DNA of 22,811 nucleotides from positions 1-22,811 of IMG/VR virus record IMGVR_UViG_3300025853_000713. One strand, written 5' to 3'. Position 1 is the first letter of the stretch, and each line of letters begins with the position of its first letter. The translations under genes were made by a program, and so were the position numbers. This DNA is from a virus. This document shows positions 9,761-22,807 of the stretch, one piece after another. The notes under the pieces were generated by a model, which worked only from the letters and a program-made list of their open reading frames with translations, did no database searches and had not been told where the DNA came from.

Positions 9761-11749
9761 ATGACATTGAAAATTGATAAAAAGAGGGATGACCTACTGG
9801 CAGATTATGCAGTAGGTATGTTGAAAGACTTTTACCTTAACAGTTACGAGACATCACCACAGGAGGCGTATGGACGAGCAGCTACCGCATGGTCAACCTA
9901 TAAAGAAGAGTTGGATGAAGAACTGGCCCAACGCCTCTACGATTATGTCAGTAATAAGTGGTTCATGTTTGCAAGTCCTGTTCTATCTAATGCACCAAAC
10001 GGTCACGGCAAGGGAAAAGGTATGCCAATATCATGTTTCCTTACTTACGTACCCGACACACTTGAAGGTCTTATCGATCATAGTTCTGAGTTGCGTTGGC
10101 TTAGTGTCTATGGTGGTGGTGTGGGAGGTCATTGGTCTGATGTCCGAACAGTTTCCGACATTGCGCCAGGCCCTATCCCGTTCCTACACACTGTAGATGC
10201 GGATATGATTGCGTATCGACAGGGTAAGACTCGTAAGGGTTCTTACGCTGCGTACATGGATGTTTCTCATCCGGACATTGTAGAGTTCCTTAACATGCGT
10301 ATCCCAACGGGAGACGTTCAACGTAAGGCGTTAAACCTACACAACGCAATCAATATCACCAACGAGTTTATGCAGGCAGTAATGGACAACACTTCGTTTG
10401 ATCTGCGAGATCCCAAAGACGGTGGTGTCAAAGAGACCATCAATGCACGTAAACTTTGGGAACGAATTTTAGAAGTGAGGTTCCGTACAGGTGAACCGTA
10501 CCTCAATTTCATTGATACCGCAAACGATGCACTACCACAAAACCTGAAGGATCTGGGACTCAAGATTCATGGATCGAATCTTTGTAACGAGATTCACCTA
10601 CCTACTGGACCGGATCGAACGGCGGTGTGTTGTCTGTCCAGTCTAAACTTGGAGTACTATGATGAATGGAAAGATACAACGATTGTGCGTGATCTTGTCA
10701 CTATGCTTGATAACGTCTTGCAGTACTTTATCGACAGCGCACCCGACACAATCACCCGCGCAAAGTACAGTGCAGAAAGAGAAAGATCAATCGGACTGGG
10801 AGCGATGGGGTTTCACTCTCTGTTACAGAAACACGGTGTGGCTTGGGAATCAGCTCGGGCAAAGGAAATTAATGAAGTTGTGTTCAACCACATCAAAACA
10901 GAAGCCACTACCCAATCCAGACACCTTGCTGGATTGCGAGGTGAATATCCTGACGGAGAGGGGAGTGGATTGCGATTCGCGCATTTACTTGCCATCGCGC
11001 CAAACGCATCTTCCGGAGTTGTACTTTCAACCAGTCCGTCCATTGAGCCCCTGAAGGCGAACGCATACACGCATCGTACCCGAGCGGGAAGTTTTTTGGT
11101 GAAGAACAAGTATCTTGACAAATTACTTACCGAGCGGGGTATAAATACTGATTCTACTTGGACATCTATCATCACACAAAAAGGTTCGGTTCAACACCTT
11201 CCAGAGTTAACAGAGGGTGAGAAGGCGGTATTCAAGACCGCACAAGAACTTGATCAGAGTTGGGTTGTCACTCACGCCGCAGACAGACAGAAATATATTT
11301 GTCAAGGACAGTCGGTCAACCTATTCTTCCCCGCTGGTGCAGAGAAGTCCTACGTTAACAAAGTACATCTCAAAGCGTGGAGAGAGGGTCTCAAGGGACT
11401 CTACTATCTACGTACCGAAGCGAAGGCTCGTGCAGAGAACGTATCGGAGAAAGTGGAACGAGTTGCATTGCAAGATGACAGTCGCACCTTGGTGTACGGT
11501 AAGAAGAATTGTCCGTTCTGTCAACTTGCGAAAGAAGAACTCAAACTACGGGGAATCCCCTATGACTATATCGATCTGGAAGAGATCGGTAAGACCGCCG
11601 CTGAAGTGACAGGTAGAAAAGTAAAGACTGTCCCTCAAATCTACGTAGAGGGAACGTATGTCGGTGGGTACGAAGAACTCATTGAATTTCTAGATAATAC
11701 CACTACAGAAGTTGTTGAAGAAGAAGAGTGCAAGGCTTGCGAGGGATGA
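9761..11749 (+). CDS. nrdA: Class Ia ribonucleotide reductase alpha subunit with inserted glutaredoxin domain
   Basis: A 662-residue protein from the ATG at 9761; a TTG at 9728 would add 11 unlikely residues. It reduces ribonucleoside diphosphates to deoxy forms. Catalytic residues are present: Cys92 and Cys290 (redox pair), Asn273/Cys275/Glu277 in NLCNE (thiyl site), and Tyr548-Tyr549 in the radical path. The N terminus lacks the ATP-cone of E. coli NrdA, so dATP shut-off through that domain is not expected. Residues about 575-648 are a glutaredoxin (CPFC at 584-587, TVP at 623-625, GG at 635-636). The usual redox-active tail, CKACEG (Cys657, Cys660), comes after this domain. The gene ends 1 nt before iscU. 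Family and fusion are clear from motifs; self-reduction of the tail by the fused domain is inferred. Confidence 0.93.
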   Translation: MTLKIDKKRDDLLADYAVGMLKDFYLNSYETSPQEAYGRAATAWSTYKEELDEELAQRLYDYVSNKWFMFASPVLSNAPNGHGKGKGMPISCFLTYVPDTLEGLIDHSSELRWLSVYGGGVGGHWSDVRTVSDIAPGPIPFLHTVDADMIAYRQGKTRKGSYAAYMDVSHPDIVEFLNMRIPTGDVQRKALNLHNAINITNEFMQAVMDNTSFDLRDPKDGGVKETINARKLWERILEVRFRTGEPYLNFIDTANDALPQNLKDLGLKIHGSNLCNEIHLPTGPDRTAVCCLSSLNLEYYDEWKDTTIVRDLVTMLDNVLQYFIDSAPDTITRAKYSAERERSIGLGAMGFHSLLQKHGVAWESARAKEINEVVFNHIKTEATTQSRHLAGLRGEYPDGEGSGLRFAHLLAIAPNASSGVVLSTSPSIEPLKANAYTHRTRAGSFLVKNKYLDKLLTERGINTDSTWTSIITQKGSVQHLPELTEGEKAVFKTAQELDQSWVVTHAADRQKYICQGQSVNLFFPAGAEKSYVNKVHLKAWREGLKGLYYLRTEAKARAENVSEKVERVALQDDSRTLVYGKKNCPFCQLAKEELKLRGIPYDYIDLEEIGKTAAEVTGRKVKTVPQIYVEGTYVGGYEELIEFLDNTTTEVVEEEECKACEG

Positions 11750-11750
11750 C

Positions 11751-12128
11751 ATGGCATATTCGGAAAAGGTATTAGACCACTACGAAAACCCACGTAACGT
11801 GGGTAAGTTCGACGAAGACGAAGAAGACATTGGTACAGGTATGGTGGGTGCACCCGCTTGTGGTGATGTCATGAGACTACAGATCAGGGTGAGTGATGAA
11901 GGAATTATTGAAGACGCACGGTTTAAAACTTATGGTTGTGGTAGTGCTATCGCTTCTAGTTCTCTACTCACCGAATGGGTCAAAGGGAAAAATCTTGAAG
12001 ACGCCGGGCAAATCCGTAATACAGATATCGCAGAAGAACTCGCACTTCCACCCGTAAAAATTCATTGTAGTGTTCTTGCAGAAGACGCAATCAAAGCAGC
12101 CATCAAAGATTACAAGGAAAAACACTGA
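11751..12128 (+). CDS. iscU: Iron-sulfur cluster assembly scaffold IscU
   Basis: A 125-residue, full-length IscU starting at ATG 11751 behind the SD GAGGGA. In cells IscU receives sulfur from IscS and iron to build 2Fe-2S clusters, then hands them on with HscA/HscB. All ligands are present at the E. coli positions: Cys37 and Asp39 (APACGD), Cys63 (YGCGSA), and His105 and Cys106 (IHCS). The HscA recognition motif LPPVK is at 99-103. Long stretches, such as GIIEDARFKTYGCGSAIASS, match E. coli IscU as I remember it, suggesting a gammaproteobacterial source. It sits between nrdA and nrdB, overlapping nrdB by 1 nt. Assignment is very sure; its benefit to the phage (iron for NrdB, a host Fe-S pathway or a Grx-bound cluster) is unknown. 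Confidence 0.96.
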   Translation: MAYSEKVLDHYENPRNVGKFDEDEEDIGTGMVGAPACGDVMRLQIRVSDEGIIEDARFKTYGCGSAIASSSLLTEWVKGKNLEDAGQIRNTDIAEELALPPVKIHCSVLAEDAIKAAIKDYKEKH

Positions 12129-13120
12129 TGTCCCTATTAGAATTTAGTACAACCTACAAACCGTTCAAGTATCCTTGGGCGGTAGAACTCTCTAAGAAAC
12201 ATGAAGAGGTTCATTGGATTGAGGATGAGGCGGAACTGTCCGAAGACGTACAGGACTGGAAGACTAAACTTACCGATGAGGAGAAAGACTTCATCACACA
12301 CATTCTCAGACTGTTTACTCAGTCGGATGTTCAGGTGGGCGAGAACTACCACGAACTACTAATCCCTCGTTTTAAAAACAACGAGGTCCGTAACATGTTG
12401 TCCTCGTTCGCCGGACGGGAGGCAGTACACCAACGTGCATATGCACTGTTGAACGATACTCTGGGTCTACCCGACGAAGAGTACCACAAGTTTCTTGAGT
12501 TCAAGGAGATGGCAGACAAAGTTGACTTCATGAAAGAAGGTGACGTTAGTACACACACGGGTCTTGCACTCGCCCTTGCTCAGTCAGTATTCAACGAAGG
12601 TATGAGTCTTTTCTCTTCATTCGTGATGTTGTTGAACTTTCAACGATTCGGAAAGATGAAGGGTATGGGTACAATCGTGGAATGGTCGATACGTGATGAA
12701 ACACTTCACGTGCAAGGGAATGCAAAACTGTTTCGTACATTCTGTGAGGAACATCCTCGCATCGTGAACGATGAACTTAAATCCAAAATCTATGAGATGG
12801 CAAAAAATGCAGTTGAACTGGAAGACAAATTTATCAACCTTGCGTTCCGTGGTAACGATGTACAGGGACTCACTAAGACTGAAGTTAGGAAGTATATTCG
12901 TCATATCGCTGATAGGCGTTTACTTCAACTGGGTCTCAAACCAAAATTTAGACAGAAGGATAATCCCCTCACCTGGCTTGACTGGGTGCTTAACGGTGCA
13001 TCCCATGACAACTTCTTCGAAAAAAGAGTTACCGAATACAGTGTTGTTGGGATGGCAGGAAGTTGGGGATGGGAGGAAAGTCCCGTTGTGTGCGACATTA
13101 GCGAGAATGTCGCTGCATGA
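12128..13120 (+). CDS. nrdB: Class Ia ribonucleotide reductase beta subunit
   Basis: A 330-residue radical-generating subunit that houses the di-iron centre and tyrosyl radical used by NrdA. Iron ligands are visible at Asp67, Glu98, His101, Glu157, Glu191 and His194. The radical tyrosine is Tyr105 in EAVHQRAY, with the same E-x2-H-x3-Y spacing as E. coli Glu115/His118/Tyr122, so a normal tyrosyl-radical (not Tyr-less) enzyme is expected. The C-terminal tail VTEYSVVGMAGSWGW should bind NrdA. It overlaps iscU by 1 nt, and the zinc-ribbon gene starts within its stop codon. Call is firm. Confidence 0.95.
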   Translation: MSLLEFSTTYKPFKYPWAVELSKKHEEVHWIEDEAELSEDVQDWKTKLTDEEKDFITHILRLFTQSDVQVGENYHELLIPRFKNNEVRNMLSSFAGREAVHQRAYALLNDTLGLPDEEYHKFLEFKEMADKVDFMKEGDVSTHTGLALALAQSVFNEGMSLFSSFVMLLNFQRFGKMKGMGTIVEWSIRDETLHVQGNAKLFRTFCEEHPRIVNDELKSKIYEMAKNAVELEDKFINLAFRGNDVQGLTKTEVRKYIRHIADRRLLQLGLKPKFRQKDNPLTWLDWVLNGASHDNFFEKRVTEYSVVGMAGSWGWEESPVVCDISENVAA

Positions 13121-13269
13121 TGGAGTCTTACATATACCAAGTTGAGTGCGTTATATGTGATGGCATCACCAAGGTTGTTTGTAGTTACGATGATGACGAA
13201 CCTCTCTACTGTCCTTTGTGCGGTGAAGAGGCGGAAGTTGAATATCTAGGAGATAGTGCCGTAGTATAA
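13120..13269 (+). CDS. 49-residue zinc-ribbon peptide
   Basis: A small gene whose ATG overlaps the nrdB stop by 1 nt (TGATG), giving 49 residues. CVIC at 10-13 and CPLC at 31-34 form a two-knuckle zinc ribbon, with an extra Cys21 between. The acidic C terminus has no basic patch for nucleic acid, so a protein-protein or metal-handling role is as likely as DNA binding. Translational coupling to nrdB and closeness to iscU make a link to RNR or metal supply possible. No named family was recognised. Confidence 0.55.
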   Translation: MESYIYQVECVICDGITKVVCSYDDDEPLYCPLCGEEAEVEYLGDSAVV

Positions 13270-13282
13270 GTCTACATACAGT

Positions 13283-13690
13283 ATGTGGATTTATAACGGA
13301 ACGCCTTACGAACCAGATGAAGACGAACTCAGTCAGTGGGTTGGGTTCGTCTATCTGATCACTGAACGTGACACCAACAAGAAGTATGTTGGTAAGAAGT
13401 TCTTTTGGTCTACTCGAAAATTGCCTCCTCTTAAGGGACAAAAAAGGAAGAGGATCAAAAAGGTTCAGTCCGACTGGAGAGACTACTACGGATCATCCGA
13501 AGAACTAAAACTTCTAGTCGAAACGAAAGGTGGGGACGCCTACCATCGTCAAATTTTGAGGTTGTGCAAATCGAAAGGTGAGTGTTCCTACTATGAGGCG
13601 AAAGAACAATTTGATCGTGATGTTCTGTTGCGAGAGGATTACTACAATGCGTTCATTGGTTGTAAGATACATGCGAAACATATCCAATGA
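13283..13690 (+). CDS. SegE-like GIY-YIG endonuclease family protein
   Basis: A 135-residue protein. GFVYLITE (21-28) and KYVGKKFF (34-41) are the two strands of a GIY-YIG core (here FVY and YVG). YYEAKEQFD (103-111) supplies the likely catalytic Glu105, and YYNAFIGCKI (120-129) a conserved Asn122. The domain resembles the SegE-like putative homing endonucleases of T4-like phages. It is small, with no separate DNA-binding module, so homing activity is not assured. It stands beside nrdB, a common place for such genes in T4-like phages. The weak start region lacks a clear SD, and the end overlaps the next gene by 4 nt. Confidence 0.75.
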   Translation: MWIYNGTPYEPDEDELSQWVGFVYLITERDTNKKYVGKKFFWSTRKLPPLKGQKRKRIKKVQSDWRDYYGSSEELKLLVETKGGDAYHRQILRLCKSKGECSYYEAKEQFDRDVLLREDYYNAFIGCKIHAKHIQ

Positions 13691-14892
13691 TTGTTGATCG
13701 AAATATAATCAACCCCGATATTATTTACGATGGTAAGACCAAGAATGAACTCATTCGAGACATCGACGGTTGGAAGAGACTACTCGTAGACACGCATAGT
13801 TTGAAAAAGGGCGACATGGTTGCGGTGTCAATCATGAACGTAAGTACGAGACACGTGTCGGCCGTGTTCGCTTGTGCAGAACTAGGATTACGGTTGATCC
13901 TACTTGATTCCCCCGCACACAAAGAATCTTTACCGTACACCAAGATTGCAAGGTTTGGTCCAGCGGACCTAACTATCACCGATGGTATTGGTGAAAAATT
14001 GTACAAGGGGTTGCACGGTGATATGATCCACCACAATTCCAAAAAGGTCGTTCATGAACTTGATATGGAACCAAGTCCGGATCCATACTTCCCTTGGTAC
14101 GCCGAAGAGTCGGATCCCTTTTTAGTATCCAGTACTTCGGGAACGACACAGTACTCTCGCAAGATAGAGTTCACTCATGAAGACTGTATGGTCTTCGCAC
14201 TTCGAAACATTCACATATTCAAGTTCCACCCTAGTTCAGTTTGTTGGCACACCAAGAACATGCACCATGCATCTTCTATGTTGACAGACCTTCTACCCTC
14301 TGTGATGGCCAGTAATCGTCACTGGAGTTACTCTCTGCCAGACAGGAAAGAATGGTTACCACTCACCAAGAATGAGGCCATAACCTTCATAGAGGACCGT
14401 GGCATCAATCGGTGTATCGTACCTAACCGTGACATCCTAGATTGGTTGATAAGAGGACACACCTTCAAAAAACGCTTGACAATTAACATGTCTGGGTTTA
14501 CAATGGATAAAGACTATGGGGACATGTGTGCAATGCATAATCTCAGGTTCATATCCCACTACGGTTCTATAGACACCGCTATCCCCGCACTGGTGAACTA
14601 TGTGGATGAAACCTATGATGAGGATGAGAATTGTCTGGGTGTCCTAGCGGATACGCAATTTATGGTTGGGGTCAATCCCGAACACGCATATGTAATCCAC
14701 CAGAGATGGAAAGAATCCCGTCAACTGGGTGACAGACTCGAATATCGAAATGGGAAGTATTATCATTTGGGTAGAATCGAGAACATCAAACTGCCTGAGG
14801 GCATCGATCTAGAACCCTTTTACCAAGATACCAAGGTAAACATGGACCAACTGAGGGGGTACATGTGGGAAAAATTTTCAAAAATAATTTAA
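13687..14892 (+). CDS. ANL-superfamily AMP-binding enzyme, C-terminally shortened
   Basis: A 401-residue protein with the core motifs of acyl-CoA synthetases and NRPS adenylation domains. These are a Rossmann-like N-terminal segment (GDMVAVSIMN, 42-51), the P-loop SSTSGTT (148-154), a YGSIDTAIP A5-type motif (292-300), GDR (348-350) with a beta-turn, and GRIENIK (362-368) at the hinge. Full members have about 500-550 residues and a mobile C-terminal domain with a catalytic lysine; here only about 33 residues follow the hinge and no A10-type PxxxxGK is seen. It could adenylate a carboxylic acid without making a thioester, or work with a partner. The gene overlaps the GIY-YIG gene by 4 nt and ends just before a promoter. 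Family call is good; substrate is unknown. Confidence 0.75.
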   Translation: MIVDRNIINPDIIYDGKTKNELIRDIDGWKRLLVDTHSLKKGDMVAVSIMNVSTRHVSAVFACAELGLRLILLDSPAHKESLPYTKIARFGPADLTITDGIGEKLYKGLHGDMIHHNSKKVVHELDMEPSPDPYFPWYAEESDPFLVSSTSGTTQYSRKIEFTHEDCMVFALRNIHIFKFHPSSVCWHTKNMHHASSMLTDLLPSVMASNRHWSYSLPDRKEWLPLTKNEAITFIEDRGINRCIVPNRDILDWLIRGHTFKKRLTINMSGFTMDKDYGDMCAMHNLRFISHYGSIDTAIPALVNYVDETYDEDENCLGVLADTQFMVGVNPEHAYVIHQRWKESRQLGDRLEYRNGKYYHLGRIENIKLPEGIDLEPFYQDTKVNMDQLRGYMWEKFSKII

Positions 14893-20631: not shown

Positions 20632-22128
20632 ATGAGATACATAGGATTCTCTGAGTTCTATCATGATGCGGGAGTCAGTGTCATCGAAGAAGATGGCACT
20701 GTCTCCTATGCAACACATGCAGAACGATGGTCTAAGAAAAAGAATGATGCGATAATCCCACCTGAGTTGTGGGATTTTGTAGGCCAAGAAAAAGGTGATG
20801 TGGTCACCTTTTATGAGGACCACCACATCAAGTATAACGTTCGTGGTGGTTTGGCGGTAGAACCTAAGTTAGACAATTACAAAAAAGAACTCCATTACCA
20901 CCACAAGATCCCTGTGTATGAGTCTCTTGTGTATGACAAGAAAGAACTACATCACACATCCCATTGTGCGGGTGCATTCTATACACGCCCTTGGCAGTCA
21001 ATAGAAGATACCGTAATGGTGTCGATTGATGGTGCTGGAGAAGTCCAGACTGGGGTCATCCTAGATCACAACTTCAATCTAATCAAAGAGTGGCACTACC
21101 CTAAGTCCGTTGGGTTAATCTATGCAATGGTCACTGAGTTTCTTGGTCTGAGACCTCTAGAGGACGAATACGTGGTCATGGGATTATCATCCTATGGTGA
21201 ACCCGTATTCGCCGACTGGTTGTACGAACAATATCACAAGTTCTCTGATATCGCAAAGGAGATAGAAGAGGGTACTCTCATTGGGGTCAGTCATTCGGAT
21301 AGAGAGAAACGAAGAAAGGTTTTCCGTAAGGAACTAAAATGGAAGTGTTACAACAACAAGGACCAAGACTCCGCTGCATCTGTACAGGAGTTTGCGGAAC
21401 GTGCAATCCTTGAGATCATGCGTGAGGCGCGTAAACACGGATCTAAGTTAGTCTACTCTGGTGGATGTGCACAGAACGTTGTTACGAACTCTAAGATCGC
21501 AGAATTGTTTGATGAGGTTCACATTGCAATCGCTCCCGCAGACTCAGGGTCTTCTCTGGGGTGCGCCGCAAAAACGTGGGCGGATGAGACCGGAGGAACT
21601 CATCTTCGTTGGAACCCTTACTTAGGAACCAACATTGACCGTGAGATTAACCCGTCCGATGTTGTTGACCACTTATTGTCAGAACAATACTGTGGTATCG
21701 CAAACGGTAGATCAGAGTTTGGTCCACGTGCACTGGGTAACAGATCCTTGATTGCAGACGTTCGGTTTGATGTCAAGGATACGGTCAACGCAATCAAACG
21801 GAGACAGAAGTATCGTCCATTTGCTCCTGCGATTCTCGAAGAGTATGCGGACCAATATTTCTCTGGTCCGATGAATGAGTACATGCAATTTACCAGTAAG
21901 GCATTACATGACTACAAGTCGGTGACCCATGTAGATGGAACCGCAAGGGTACAGGTTGTCCGTAAGGATTGTCAATCTATATTCCGTAAAATTATTGAAG
22001 AGTACTATGAACGCACTGGTGTCCCTATGCTCTTGAATACTAGTCTTAACGTTAGGGGTAGACCTATGGTCGATGATCTTCGAGACGCTAAGATTTGGGA
22101 AAGTACATATAACGTAAGGGTATTTTAA
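20632..22128 (+). CDS. NodU/TobZ-type O-carbamoyltransferase
   Basis: A 498-residue carbamoyltransferase, which uses carbamoyl phosphate and ATP to put a carbamoyl group on a hydroxyl, usually of a sugar or antibiotic. The N-terminal Hsp70/actin-like part shows HDAGVSVIEEDG (11-22), HHTSHCAGAFY (107-117), SIDGAGE (131-137), VMGLSSYGEP (182-191), SGGCAQN (276-282) and PADSGSSLGCA (302-312). The YrdC-like C-terminal part shows GRSEFGPRALGNRS (359-372), KYRPFAPAILEE (393-404) and PMLLNTSLNVRGRP (465-478). It is slightly shorter than the roughly 550-600 residues I recall for typical members, but all core motifs remain. It starts at the base after the HAD stop, with SD GAGGG. The substrate is unknown; the nearby glycosyltransferase suggests a sugar. 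Confidence 0.9.
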   Translation: MRYIGFSEFYHDAGVSVIEEDGTVSYATHAERWSKKKNDAIIPPELWDFVGQEKGDVVTFYEDHHIKYNVRGGLAVEPKLDNYKKELHYHHKIPVYESLVYDKKELHHTSHCAGAFYTRPWQSIEDTVMVSIDGAGEVQTGVILDHNFNLIKEWHYPKSVGLIYAMVTEFLGLRPLEDEYVVMGLSSYGEPVFADWLYEQYHKFSDIAKEIEEGTLIGVSHSDREKRRKVFRKELKWKCYNNKDQDSAASVQEFAERAILEIMREARKHGSKLVYSGGCAQNVVTNSKIAELFDEVHIAIAPADSGSSLGCAAKTWADETGGTHLRWNPYLGTNIDREINPSDVVDHLLSEQYCGIANGRSEFGPRALGNRSLIADVRFDVKDTVNAIKRRQKYRPFAPAILEEYADQYFSGPMNEYMQFTSKALHDYKSVTHVDGTARVQVVRKDCQSIFRKIIEEYYERTGVPMLLNTSLNVRGRPMVDDLRDAKIWESTYNVRVF

Positions 22129-22129
22129 C

Positions 22130-22477
22130 ATGAAGGCAGGTAAGGTTTGGGGTCAGACGGAACTGATCGAAGCGAACGGTGTACTAGAGTTTCATCGTAT
22201 CGAAATGAAGAAGGGTGGTGTGTGTTCCAAACACAAACACAAGTATAAGTGGAACGGGTTCTTCTGTGAGTCCGGAGAACTACTCATTCGAGTGTGGAAG
22301 AACGCATATGATCTTGTTGATGAAACAATTCTCAAGCCCGGACAGTATACCAAGGTTGCGCCAGGCGAGTTTCACCAGTTCGAATGTTTGAAGGATGGTG
22401 TCGCCTATGAATTGTACTGGGCGGAGTTCAACCATGATGATATTGAAAGAGAGTCCGTAGGGTTCCAACAGGTATAA
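22130..22477 (+). CDS. Cupin-fold protein 1
   Basis: A 115-residue single-domain cupin. KHKHKYKWNGFFCESGEL (about residues 34-51) gives His35, His37 and an acidic ligand, and VAPGEFHQFE (76-85) gives His82 of the second motif. Small cupins of this type act as sugar isomerases/epimerases, dioxygenases or simple binding proteins. The ATG is 1 nt after the carbamoyltransferase stop, so the two are probably co-expressed and may act on the same substrate. AAG and AAC codons dominate as in the rest of the window. Activity is unknown. Confidence 0.75.
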   Translation: MKAGKVWGQTELIEANGVLEFHRIEMKKGGVCSKHKHKYKWNGFFCESGELLIRVWKNAYDLVDETILKPGQYTKVAPGEFHQFECLKDGVAYELYWAEFNHDDIERESVGFQQV

Positions 22478-22483
22478 AATATT

Positions 22484-22807
22484 ATGAAATTCAAAAGTTC
22501 AAGTATTGAAGGAACGGTTGTAAAAAATGATGATCGTTACATTGTAAAGGATAACACAACACTAAAAAATCTTGTTGTTAGTTCAACAAGATTAAATCCA
22601 CGCAAAAGCACAAGTGGACACAAGCACGAAGGACAGGAAGAAGTTTACATGTTTCTTGAAGGCAGTGGCACTATGGAACTGGATGATGTAACTCATAATG
22701 TTGAAGCAGGCGACACTGTGTTAATTGAGGACGGTGTGTTTCATCGTGTTCATGCAGGCAATGAAGAATTGTATTTTGTATGCGTGTTTGATGGAAGTAG
22801 AAAGTAA
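22484..22807 (+). CDS. Cupin-fold protein 2, atypical codon use
   Basis: A 107-residue cupin with a textbook first motif, GHKHEGQEEVYMFLEGSG (45-62; His46, His48 and Glu52 or Glu53), and second motif, GDTVLIEDGVFHRVHAGN (76-93; His87). Such proteins often bind metal and act on sugars, or sense small molecules. Codon use differs from the neighbour 6 nt upstream: 5 of 8 Lys codons are AAA and 5 of 6 Asn codons AAT, against mostly AAG and all AAC in cupin 1, and GGC is common for Gly. This suggests separate, recent acquisition. The full gene fits within the window. Substrate is unknown. Confidence 0.78.
   Translation: MKFKSSSIEGTVVKNDDRYIVKDNTTLKNLVVSSTRLNPRKSTSGHKHEGQEEVYMFLEGSGTMELDDVTHNVEAGDTVLIEDGVFHRVHAGNEELYFVCVFDGSRK

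Follow-up and report, generated by a model that had tools for sequence, protein, structure and literature searches.

The window, a virus record of 22,811 bases, carries on its plus strand a gene at positions 11751-12128 that encodes IscU, the scaffold for Fe-S cluster assembly (125 aa). In profile searches, this ORF matched Pfam NifU_N with 183.5 bits and scored 224.3 bits against the NCBIfam model TIGR01999 (iscU), passing the curated cut-off of 192.4. The NCBIfam models NifU_clost, NifU_proper and SufU each stayed under their own cut-offs. Among phage protein families, the protein matched PHROG 8429, a 'NifU-like Fe-S cluster assembly protein' of the category moron/AMG/host takeover. Residues 1-124 aligned without gaps to residues 1-124 of the scaffold protein in PDB entry 2l4x. 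Thus C37, D39, C63, LPPVK (residues 99-103), H105 and C106 are all intact and in place, and the original prediction was right to call a complete IscU with these residue numbers. The cluster-site residues (three cysteines, Asp39 and His105) and LPPVK were invariant among 79 distinct phage IscUs, a set that left out one sequence cut at its start (L077) and one frameshifted sequence (L322), with L082 set aside as bacterial; when near-copies and L082 were included, the motif was present in 111 of 111 sequences. Retention of LPPVK makes the use of host HscA/HscB likely, as had been proposed. In nine sequence pairs, dN/dS ranged from 0.02 to 0.20, indicating purifying selection on phage IscU (two of 11 pairs were skipped because of unequal length, and several dS values are high).

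The gene is embedded between the two subunit genes of a class I ribonucleotide reductase (RNR), with the spacing and overlap of 1 nt that had first been noted. Following the nrdA stop codon (TGA, 11747-11749), a single base precedes the iscU start codon (ATG at 11751), and the iscU stop codon (TGA, 12126-12128) overlaps the nrdB ATG (12128) by one base. Shine-Dalgarno-like motifs lie on the same strand within the respective upstream gene: GAGGG inside the 3' end of nrdA (11741-11745), 5 nt upstream of the iscU ATG, and AAGGA inside the 3' end of iscU (12114-12118), 9 nt upstream of the nrdB ATG. From this layout we infer a shared nrdA-iscU-nrdB transcript.

The plus-strand gene nrdA (9761-11749) encodes a large subunit of 662 aa that matched Pfam Ribonuc_red_lgN/lgC and Glutaredoxin and the NCBIfam model PRK09102 (763 bits versus a cut-off of 620), without a Pfam ATP-cone match. 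Its C-terminal glutaredoxin (Grx) domain (PF00462, aa 577-634, 11489-11662) has the active site CPFC, and beyond this domain the protein ends in a Cys-Lys-Ala-Cys (CKAC) tail (11729-11740). The small subunit gene nrdB (12128-13120, plus strand) is of the Francisella type, and its product has a complete set of metal ligands (Asp/Glu/His) together with the radical tyrosine (D67, E98, H101, Y105, E157, E191 and H194). Its closest solved relative by sequence is 9dws, the apo beta subunit of Francisella hispaniensis, with 59% identity in structural alignment; the predicted NrdB model (pLDDT 67.1, middling) was used solely to identify such relatives. Judged by these residues, the window NrdB would be a class I, Tyr-radical (Ia-like) protein; its cofactor may be di-iron, Mn or Mn/Fe, and 9dws was crystallised metal-free. 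The seven positions were the same in 84 of 84 NrdB sequences, that is in the 10 with iscU at the junction as well as in the 74 without, so that at the positions checked no NrdB difference is linked to iscU.

Downstream, a 50-aa ORF with two CxxC pairs (13117-13269, plus strand) overlaps the end of nrdB; it has a weak PHROG match, and L014 also has one after nrdB (77%). Close behind lies a gene for a SegE-like GIY-YIG endonuclease (13283-13690) that might help cassette movement here; several relatives also carry it in the vicinity of nrdB or iscU. The ORF at 13687-14892 resembles AMP-binding enzymes (29.6 bits versus a Pfam cut-off of 29.9), and the stretch 20632-22807 holds a carbamoyltransferase followed by two small, putative cupin ORFs. 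By coordinate conversion, the parent contig G024 carries a radical-SAM gene about 1.3 kb beyond the window end. Some contigs that lack iscU also have carbamoyltransferase and radical-SAM genes at a short distance from each other.

A chimeric assembly, originally raised as a threat to the observation, is ruled out by copies elsewhere. The nrdA-iscU-nrdB stretch, with all three proteins 100% identical, is found in the IMG/VR contigs L163, L164 and L165, each with a sample number of its own, and diverged forms of the arrangement are present in further phage contigs. The IMG/VR IscU relatives analysed here are the best 80 of at least 590 stretches encoding one, and the phage lists (best 80 each) were seeded with proteins of iscU-carrying phages; therefore, fractions given below are not population frequencies.

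We then surveyed the junction between nrdA and nrdB, using the window NrdA and NrdB as seeds. Among the matches listed, 102 distinct junctions were found: 69 direct, 10 with iscU and 23 with another insert or gap (at least 60 bases; 19 of the 23 contain an ORF with 50 aa or more). The iscU junctions (L001, L011, L014, L015, L042, L043, L092, L095, L199 and L206) represent about six distinct kinds. In L042 the order is nrdA-iscU-iscA-nrdB, with iscA identified by Pfam Fe-S_biosyn, while L011 has nrdA-orf177-iscU-nrdB and L092 has an FkbM methyltransferase gene between nrdA and iscU, followed by nrdB. Other cargo at the junction comprised FkbM methyltransferase, carbamoyltransferases, a family with an SGNH-hydrolase-like start but no Pfam match, and several ORF families without assignment. 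A family of acidic proteins of 160-190 aa, likewise without a Pfam match, is encoded directly after nrdA in L011 (4325-4858), L015, L103, L181 and L099. The 177-aa ORF that precedes iscU in L011-type phages (model pLDDT 84.5) gave no PDB match at E <= 0.001.

NifU_N was also searched in 49 contigs with the window-type RNR (about 2.2 Mb). Nine contained it, and eight of these nine copies were located at the nrdA/nrdB junction; the ninth was divergent (135.9 bits) and away from it. The nearest annotated phage found, C48C1 (OQ984149, Kyanoviridae), encodes an IscU 83.7% identical to that of the window and the same type of nrdA and nrdB. In C48C1, however, nrdA and nrdB are directly joined and iscU lies about 32 kb off, separated from the replicative helicase gene by two genes. 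With C48C1 added, 8 of 10 iscU copies are at the junction. Three large contigs with the window-type RNR, G002 (131 kb), G003 (141 kb) and G004 (144 kb), all perhaps incomplete, gave no NifU_N or iscU match. As controls we followed two other cargo families in the 49 contigs, both picked after the inserts were known. Of 28 carbamoyltransferase matches, one was at the junction and about nine more lay within roughly 3.5 kb after nrdB (coordinate comparison). The SGNH-like family was there in three of six contigs, and in a fourth, in which no nrdA was seen, it immediately preceded nrdB. That is, iscU is concentrated at the junction, yet another cargo is likewise.

The same place is used in a second, unrelated RNR lineage. 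In L047, iscU lies between nrdA and nrdB of the E. coli type (NrdA, 771 aa, PRK09103 838 bits versus a cut-off of 813; NrdB, 366 aa, best model PRK09101 with 299 bits, below its cut-off of 346). Seeded with the L047 NrdB, 69 distinct junctions were listed, of which 30 were direct, five held iscU and 34 another insert or gap; with near-copies kept, the 75 junctions among the matches listed were 33 direct, six with iscU and 36 other, and both counts take in a few loci found via IscU. Nine further loci of this lineage have iscU 1.6-4.5 kb after nrdB, eight of them with iscA. Junction cargo again included other genes, among them 2OG-Fe(II) oxygenase, and one ORF family without assignment occurs at the junctions of both lineages (L130/L183 and L335/L343/L392). 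The nrdA/nrdB junction is thus a general cargo slot in both RNR lineages and not special to IscU. A third arrangement, iscU-iscA-nrdA-nrdB, was found in L041, whose NrdA is 47% identical to that of L047. In another contig with an E. coli-type RNR, L322, a frameshift splits iscU (10154-10535), reflecting either decay or a sequencing error.

Looking from iscU outwards, we took the 80 best IscU loci, near-copies included, and recorded same-strand genes no more than 250 bases away. Since assignments rest on similarity to examples, all adjacency counts are minima. The most frequent neighbour was the A-type carrier gene iscA, in at least 33 of the 80 loci, followed by class Ia RNR (at least nine), radical SAM (six), Fe/Mn superoxide dismutase (SOD; five) and class II RNR (three); DNA polymerase A (two), DNA polymerase B (one) and UvsW (one) were rarer, again as minima. 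A 2OG-Fe(II) oxygenase with Pfam support adjoins iscU in three of the 80 (L008, L019 and L051). In L021, L024 and L074 the neighbour is a C48C1-type protein without a Pfam match; that it is a 2OG-Fe(II) oxygenase as well is our guess. An RNR gene lay within the fetched stretch in 26 of the 80 best loci, whereas roughly 7% would be expected under uniform placement (a rough figure for a 150-kb genome with a single RNR operon, given flanks that total 7.35 kb on average). Together with the 8 of 10 copies at the junction, this means that the association of iscU with RNR is more than chance.

Class II RNRs use cobalamin and have no iron requirement. In L031 (550-2418), as in L049 and L055, a gene for a class II (B12-type) RNR stops a few bases upstream of iscU; the L031 protein exceeded the Pfam cut-off for RNR-II_ins_dom and reached 325 bits with TIGR02505, just below the cut-off of 340. 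Hence, iscU accompanies RNR and replication genes with or without iron involvement. Genes related to class II RNR are also present within the fetched stretches of L004, L009 and L023. Directly upstream of iscU, a Fe/Mn superoxide dismutase gene was found in L018 (4268-4867), L013, L020, L069 and L071, where iscA adjoins too, and the gene content of this SOD-iscU-iscA group would fit an oxidative-stress/Fe-S cassette. A radical-SAM gene takes the same upstream position in L057 (973-1887), L058, L061, L063, L064 and L078; four of the six have iscA directly after iscU.

With respect to origin, phage IscUs grouped with gammaproteobacterial ones, and the window IscU fell among the latter, whose rows are the best 80 among the matches listed in a scan seeded with the window IscU. 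Since the protein is short, support was low (6 of 144 inner branches starred). The L011/L015 IscUs were placed next to sequences from Halieaceae and SAR92/Porticoccaceae (support 84), a hint that these phages may infect such hosts. From their gene content and the family of C48C1, the phages appear to be T4-like. A single origin of the junction IscUs in the window's RNR lineage was not rejected (p-AU 0.329), and we therefore do not claim several gains there. On the NrdB tree, the iscU state needs six changes, at least three of them forced by starred branches. Constraining the junction IscUs of both RNR lineages to one clade was marginally rejected (p-AU 0.0455).

We next looked for genes that might work with IscU. 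In the 80 best IscU loci, queries for IscS, HscA, HscB and Fdx taken from one bacterial operon gave no match within at most 5 kb per side. This operon is that of L082 (CAKLQF020000009), which is named Acinetobacter phage MD-2021a, carries iscR-iscS-iscU-iscA-hscB-hscA-fdx amid housekeeping genes and looks like a mislabelled bacterial chromosome rather than a phage. IscS was found in none of 42 phage records (the same query had found its own operon in the 80-locus search; there was no control within the 42-record search). A Fer2 [2Fe-2S] ferredoxin was likewise found in 0 of the 42, with 12 of 14 control genomes matched. The contigs searched thus gave no match for a partner ferredoxin or IscS encoded by the phage. 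The radical-SAM gene was rejected as the client that would explain iscU, as it also occurs in records without iscU (19 of 30 records with a match).

On balance, we consider it fairly probable that the window iscU is an auxiliary metabolic gene for Fe-S supply which occupies a cargo slot in a dNTP operon, with RNR as an indirect beneficiary at most. As expected of an auxiliary gene, it is a host-type gene that is accessory among relatives, being present in 9 of the 49 contigs and missing from the three large ones. Phage IscU probably boosts the Fe-S supply of the host in infection and is probably not an RNR-special part. For its activity, host partners and clients we infer the following course. 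From the cargo slot, IscU would be translated together with NrdA and NrdB. Host IscS, the cysteine desulfurase, would supply the sulfur and a host ferredoxin the electrons, and a [2Fe-2S] cluster would be assembled on C37/D39/C63/H105/C106 and passed on via host HscA/HscB, which would use the LPPVK site. Fe-S supply would then be raised or protected during phage replication, to the general benefit of the Fe-S proteins of host and phage; the product of the radical-SAM gene past the window end in the parent contig of L001 (about 1.3 kb) is a possible phage client. What speaks against an auxiliary gene in a general slot is the contrast between iscU, at the junction in 8 of 10 cases, and carbamoyltransferase (1 of 28), and the excess of RNR genes near iscU (26 of 80 loci versus about 7%). 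An IscU-specific junction is in turn disfavoured by the SGNH-like cargo, there in three, perhaps four, of six contigs, and by the approximately nine additional carbamoyltransferases near nrdB.

The placement had originally been read as a possible sign of an RNR-specific role, and this part of the original prediction is weakened, while gene identity, residues, spacing and the likely host chaperones stood. A helper dedicated to RNR would give a [2Fe-2S] cluster to a host ferredoxin of the YfaE/Fdx type, or iron directly, for the formation or regeneration of the metal-tyrosyl cofactor of phage NrdB, and selection for matched expression would have driven iscU into RNR operons. In its favour are the occurrence of iscU inside nrdA/nrdB of two unrelated class I lineages and upstream in a third arrangement (L041), the marginal rejection of one clade for the junction IscUs of both lineages, and the eight of nine copies at the junction in the 49 contigs. 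The further claim that Fe-S chemistry is unconnected with class Ia RNR was too strong: according to excerpts of PMC8304116, the Fe-S protein YfaE is needed for upkeep of the diferric radical cofactor of E. coli class Ia RNR, and excerpts of PMC4180463 link the function or expression of yeast RNR to the Fe-S trafficking factors Grx3/4 and Dre2. These precedents give the RNR-coupled reading some weight, and it loses weight through the same-RNR contigs without iscU and through the class II case. A dedicated maturation factor should be present wherever its RNR needs it, but 69 of the 102 listed junctions were direct and G002, G003 and G004 (131-144 kb, perhaps incomplete) lacked NifU_N; it should also accompany iron-dependent RNRs only, but iscU adjoins the iron-free B12-type enzyme in L031, L049 and L055, and further DNA polymerases, radical SAM and SOD. 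In addition, NrdB residues do not vary with the presence of iscU, many unrelated cargo genes use the same junction in two lineages, none of the 42 phage records gave a Fer2 ferredoxin match, and the metal of this NrdB subtype may be iron, manganese or both, with the nearest solved relative crystallised without any. We therefore regard an RNR-dedicated helper as unlikely. That phage IscU, with or without IscA, limits NrdB radical activation or repair via a host [2Fe-2S] ferredoxin, and that this need drove iscU independently into RNR operons of at least two unrelated lineages, we likewise consider unlikely.

A variant of the RNR connection had IscU loading a cluster on the fused glutaredoxin. 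A proline in the active site of a glutaredoxin, as in CPFC, disfavours cluster binding. From this site, and from the role of NrdB-fused Grx as RNR reductant given in excerpts of PMC6187632, we judge such loading unlikely.

Alternatively, the location might carry no functional message at all: the junction of two conserved genes would be a recombination target at which cassettes swap via their nrdA and nrdB flanks, with a perhaps small benefit of their own. Inserts of many families at one point, their patchy distribution on the NrdB tree (six changes, at least three forced) and a second lineage with another insert or gap at 34 of 69 listed junctions are in line with this. Purifying selection and the intact residues speak for a protein in use, however, and the RNR association extends beyond the junction (26 of the 80 best loci), which makes a cargo slot without further meaning improbable. 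A decoy that titrates IscS away from tRNA thiolation or other sulfur acceptors and alters host physiology without making clusters would fit a scaffold without IscS in the phage contigs searched and the host-takeover category of PHROG 8429, but it would need neither the cluster residues and HscA site kept in 79 of 79 distinct phage IscUs nor the iscA that adjoins in 33 of the 80 best loci, and we consider it very improbable.

Phage iscU as such is already known. Together with A-type carriers, it was reported in marine environmental viral genomes (PMC5332604). As far as excerpts of that report go, its genes resemble ours in the gammaproteobacterial-type IscU, often with an A-type carrier, in T4-like genomes among the carriers, and in the proposal that they serve host and viral Fe-S proteins. 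They differ in that ribonucleotide reductase is named 0 times in the main text and the excerpts describe no RNR operon. HMO-2011-type phages likewise carry an iscU scaffold and an erpA carrier, but belong to a different phage group, and the excerpted text describes no nrdA-iscU-nrdB (PMC9038755). Fusions of Grx to an RNR subunit are reported in viruses and Francisella, including grx::nrdA in two viruses, with no mention of iscU in the excerpts (PMC6187632). Francisella NrdB is similar in being closest to the window NrdB among solved structures. In E. coli, yfaE adjoins nrdAB. Work by Wu et al. from 2007 reportedly dealt with the YfaE ferredoxin and NrdB. YfaE is comparable as an Fe-S protein tied to class Ia RNR, but it is a ferredoxin for NrdB itself, whereas phage IscU is an upstream scaffold and Fer2 gave no match in the 42 phage records. 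Among the papers listed on iscU or Fe-S genes with RNR or T4-like phages, no title or abstract opening describes iscU within an RNR operon. In the sources surveyed, as far as their titles, abstracts and excerpts go, the recurrent placement of iscU inside or beside unrelated RNR operons is thus not described. We confirmed that a known auxiliary gene recurs in this arrangement, and its place is best explained by a general cargo slot. If the coupling were functional, it would account for some of the Fe-S genes in marine viromes and allow the limits on RNR cofactor assembly to be studied in vivo in a simple bacterial system. Even if iscU is cargo, the nrdA/nrdB junction of these phages stands out as a place where auxiliary genes dock again and again, which helps to predict the sites of new ones.

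Among phage records, megablast with the window matched C48C1 only, with 4% of the window covered, and 17 records had an IscU-like match, two of which were examined. An IscU/NifU-like protein 48-55% identical to that of the window is encoded in MT835613, MT837499, MT835701 and MT837020, four phage records without annotation that come from human faeces.
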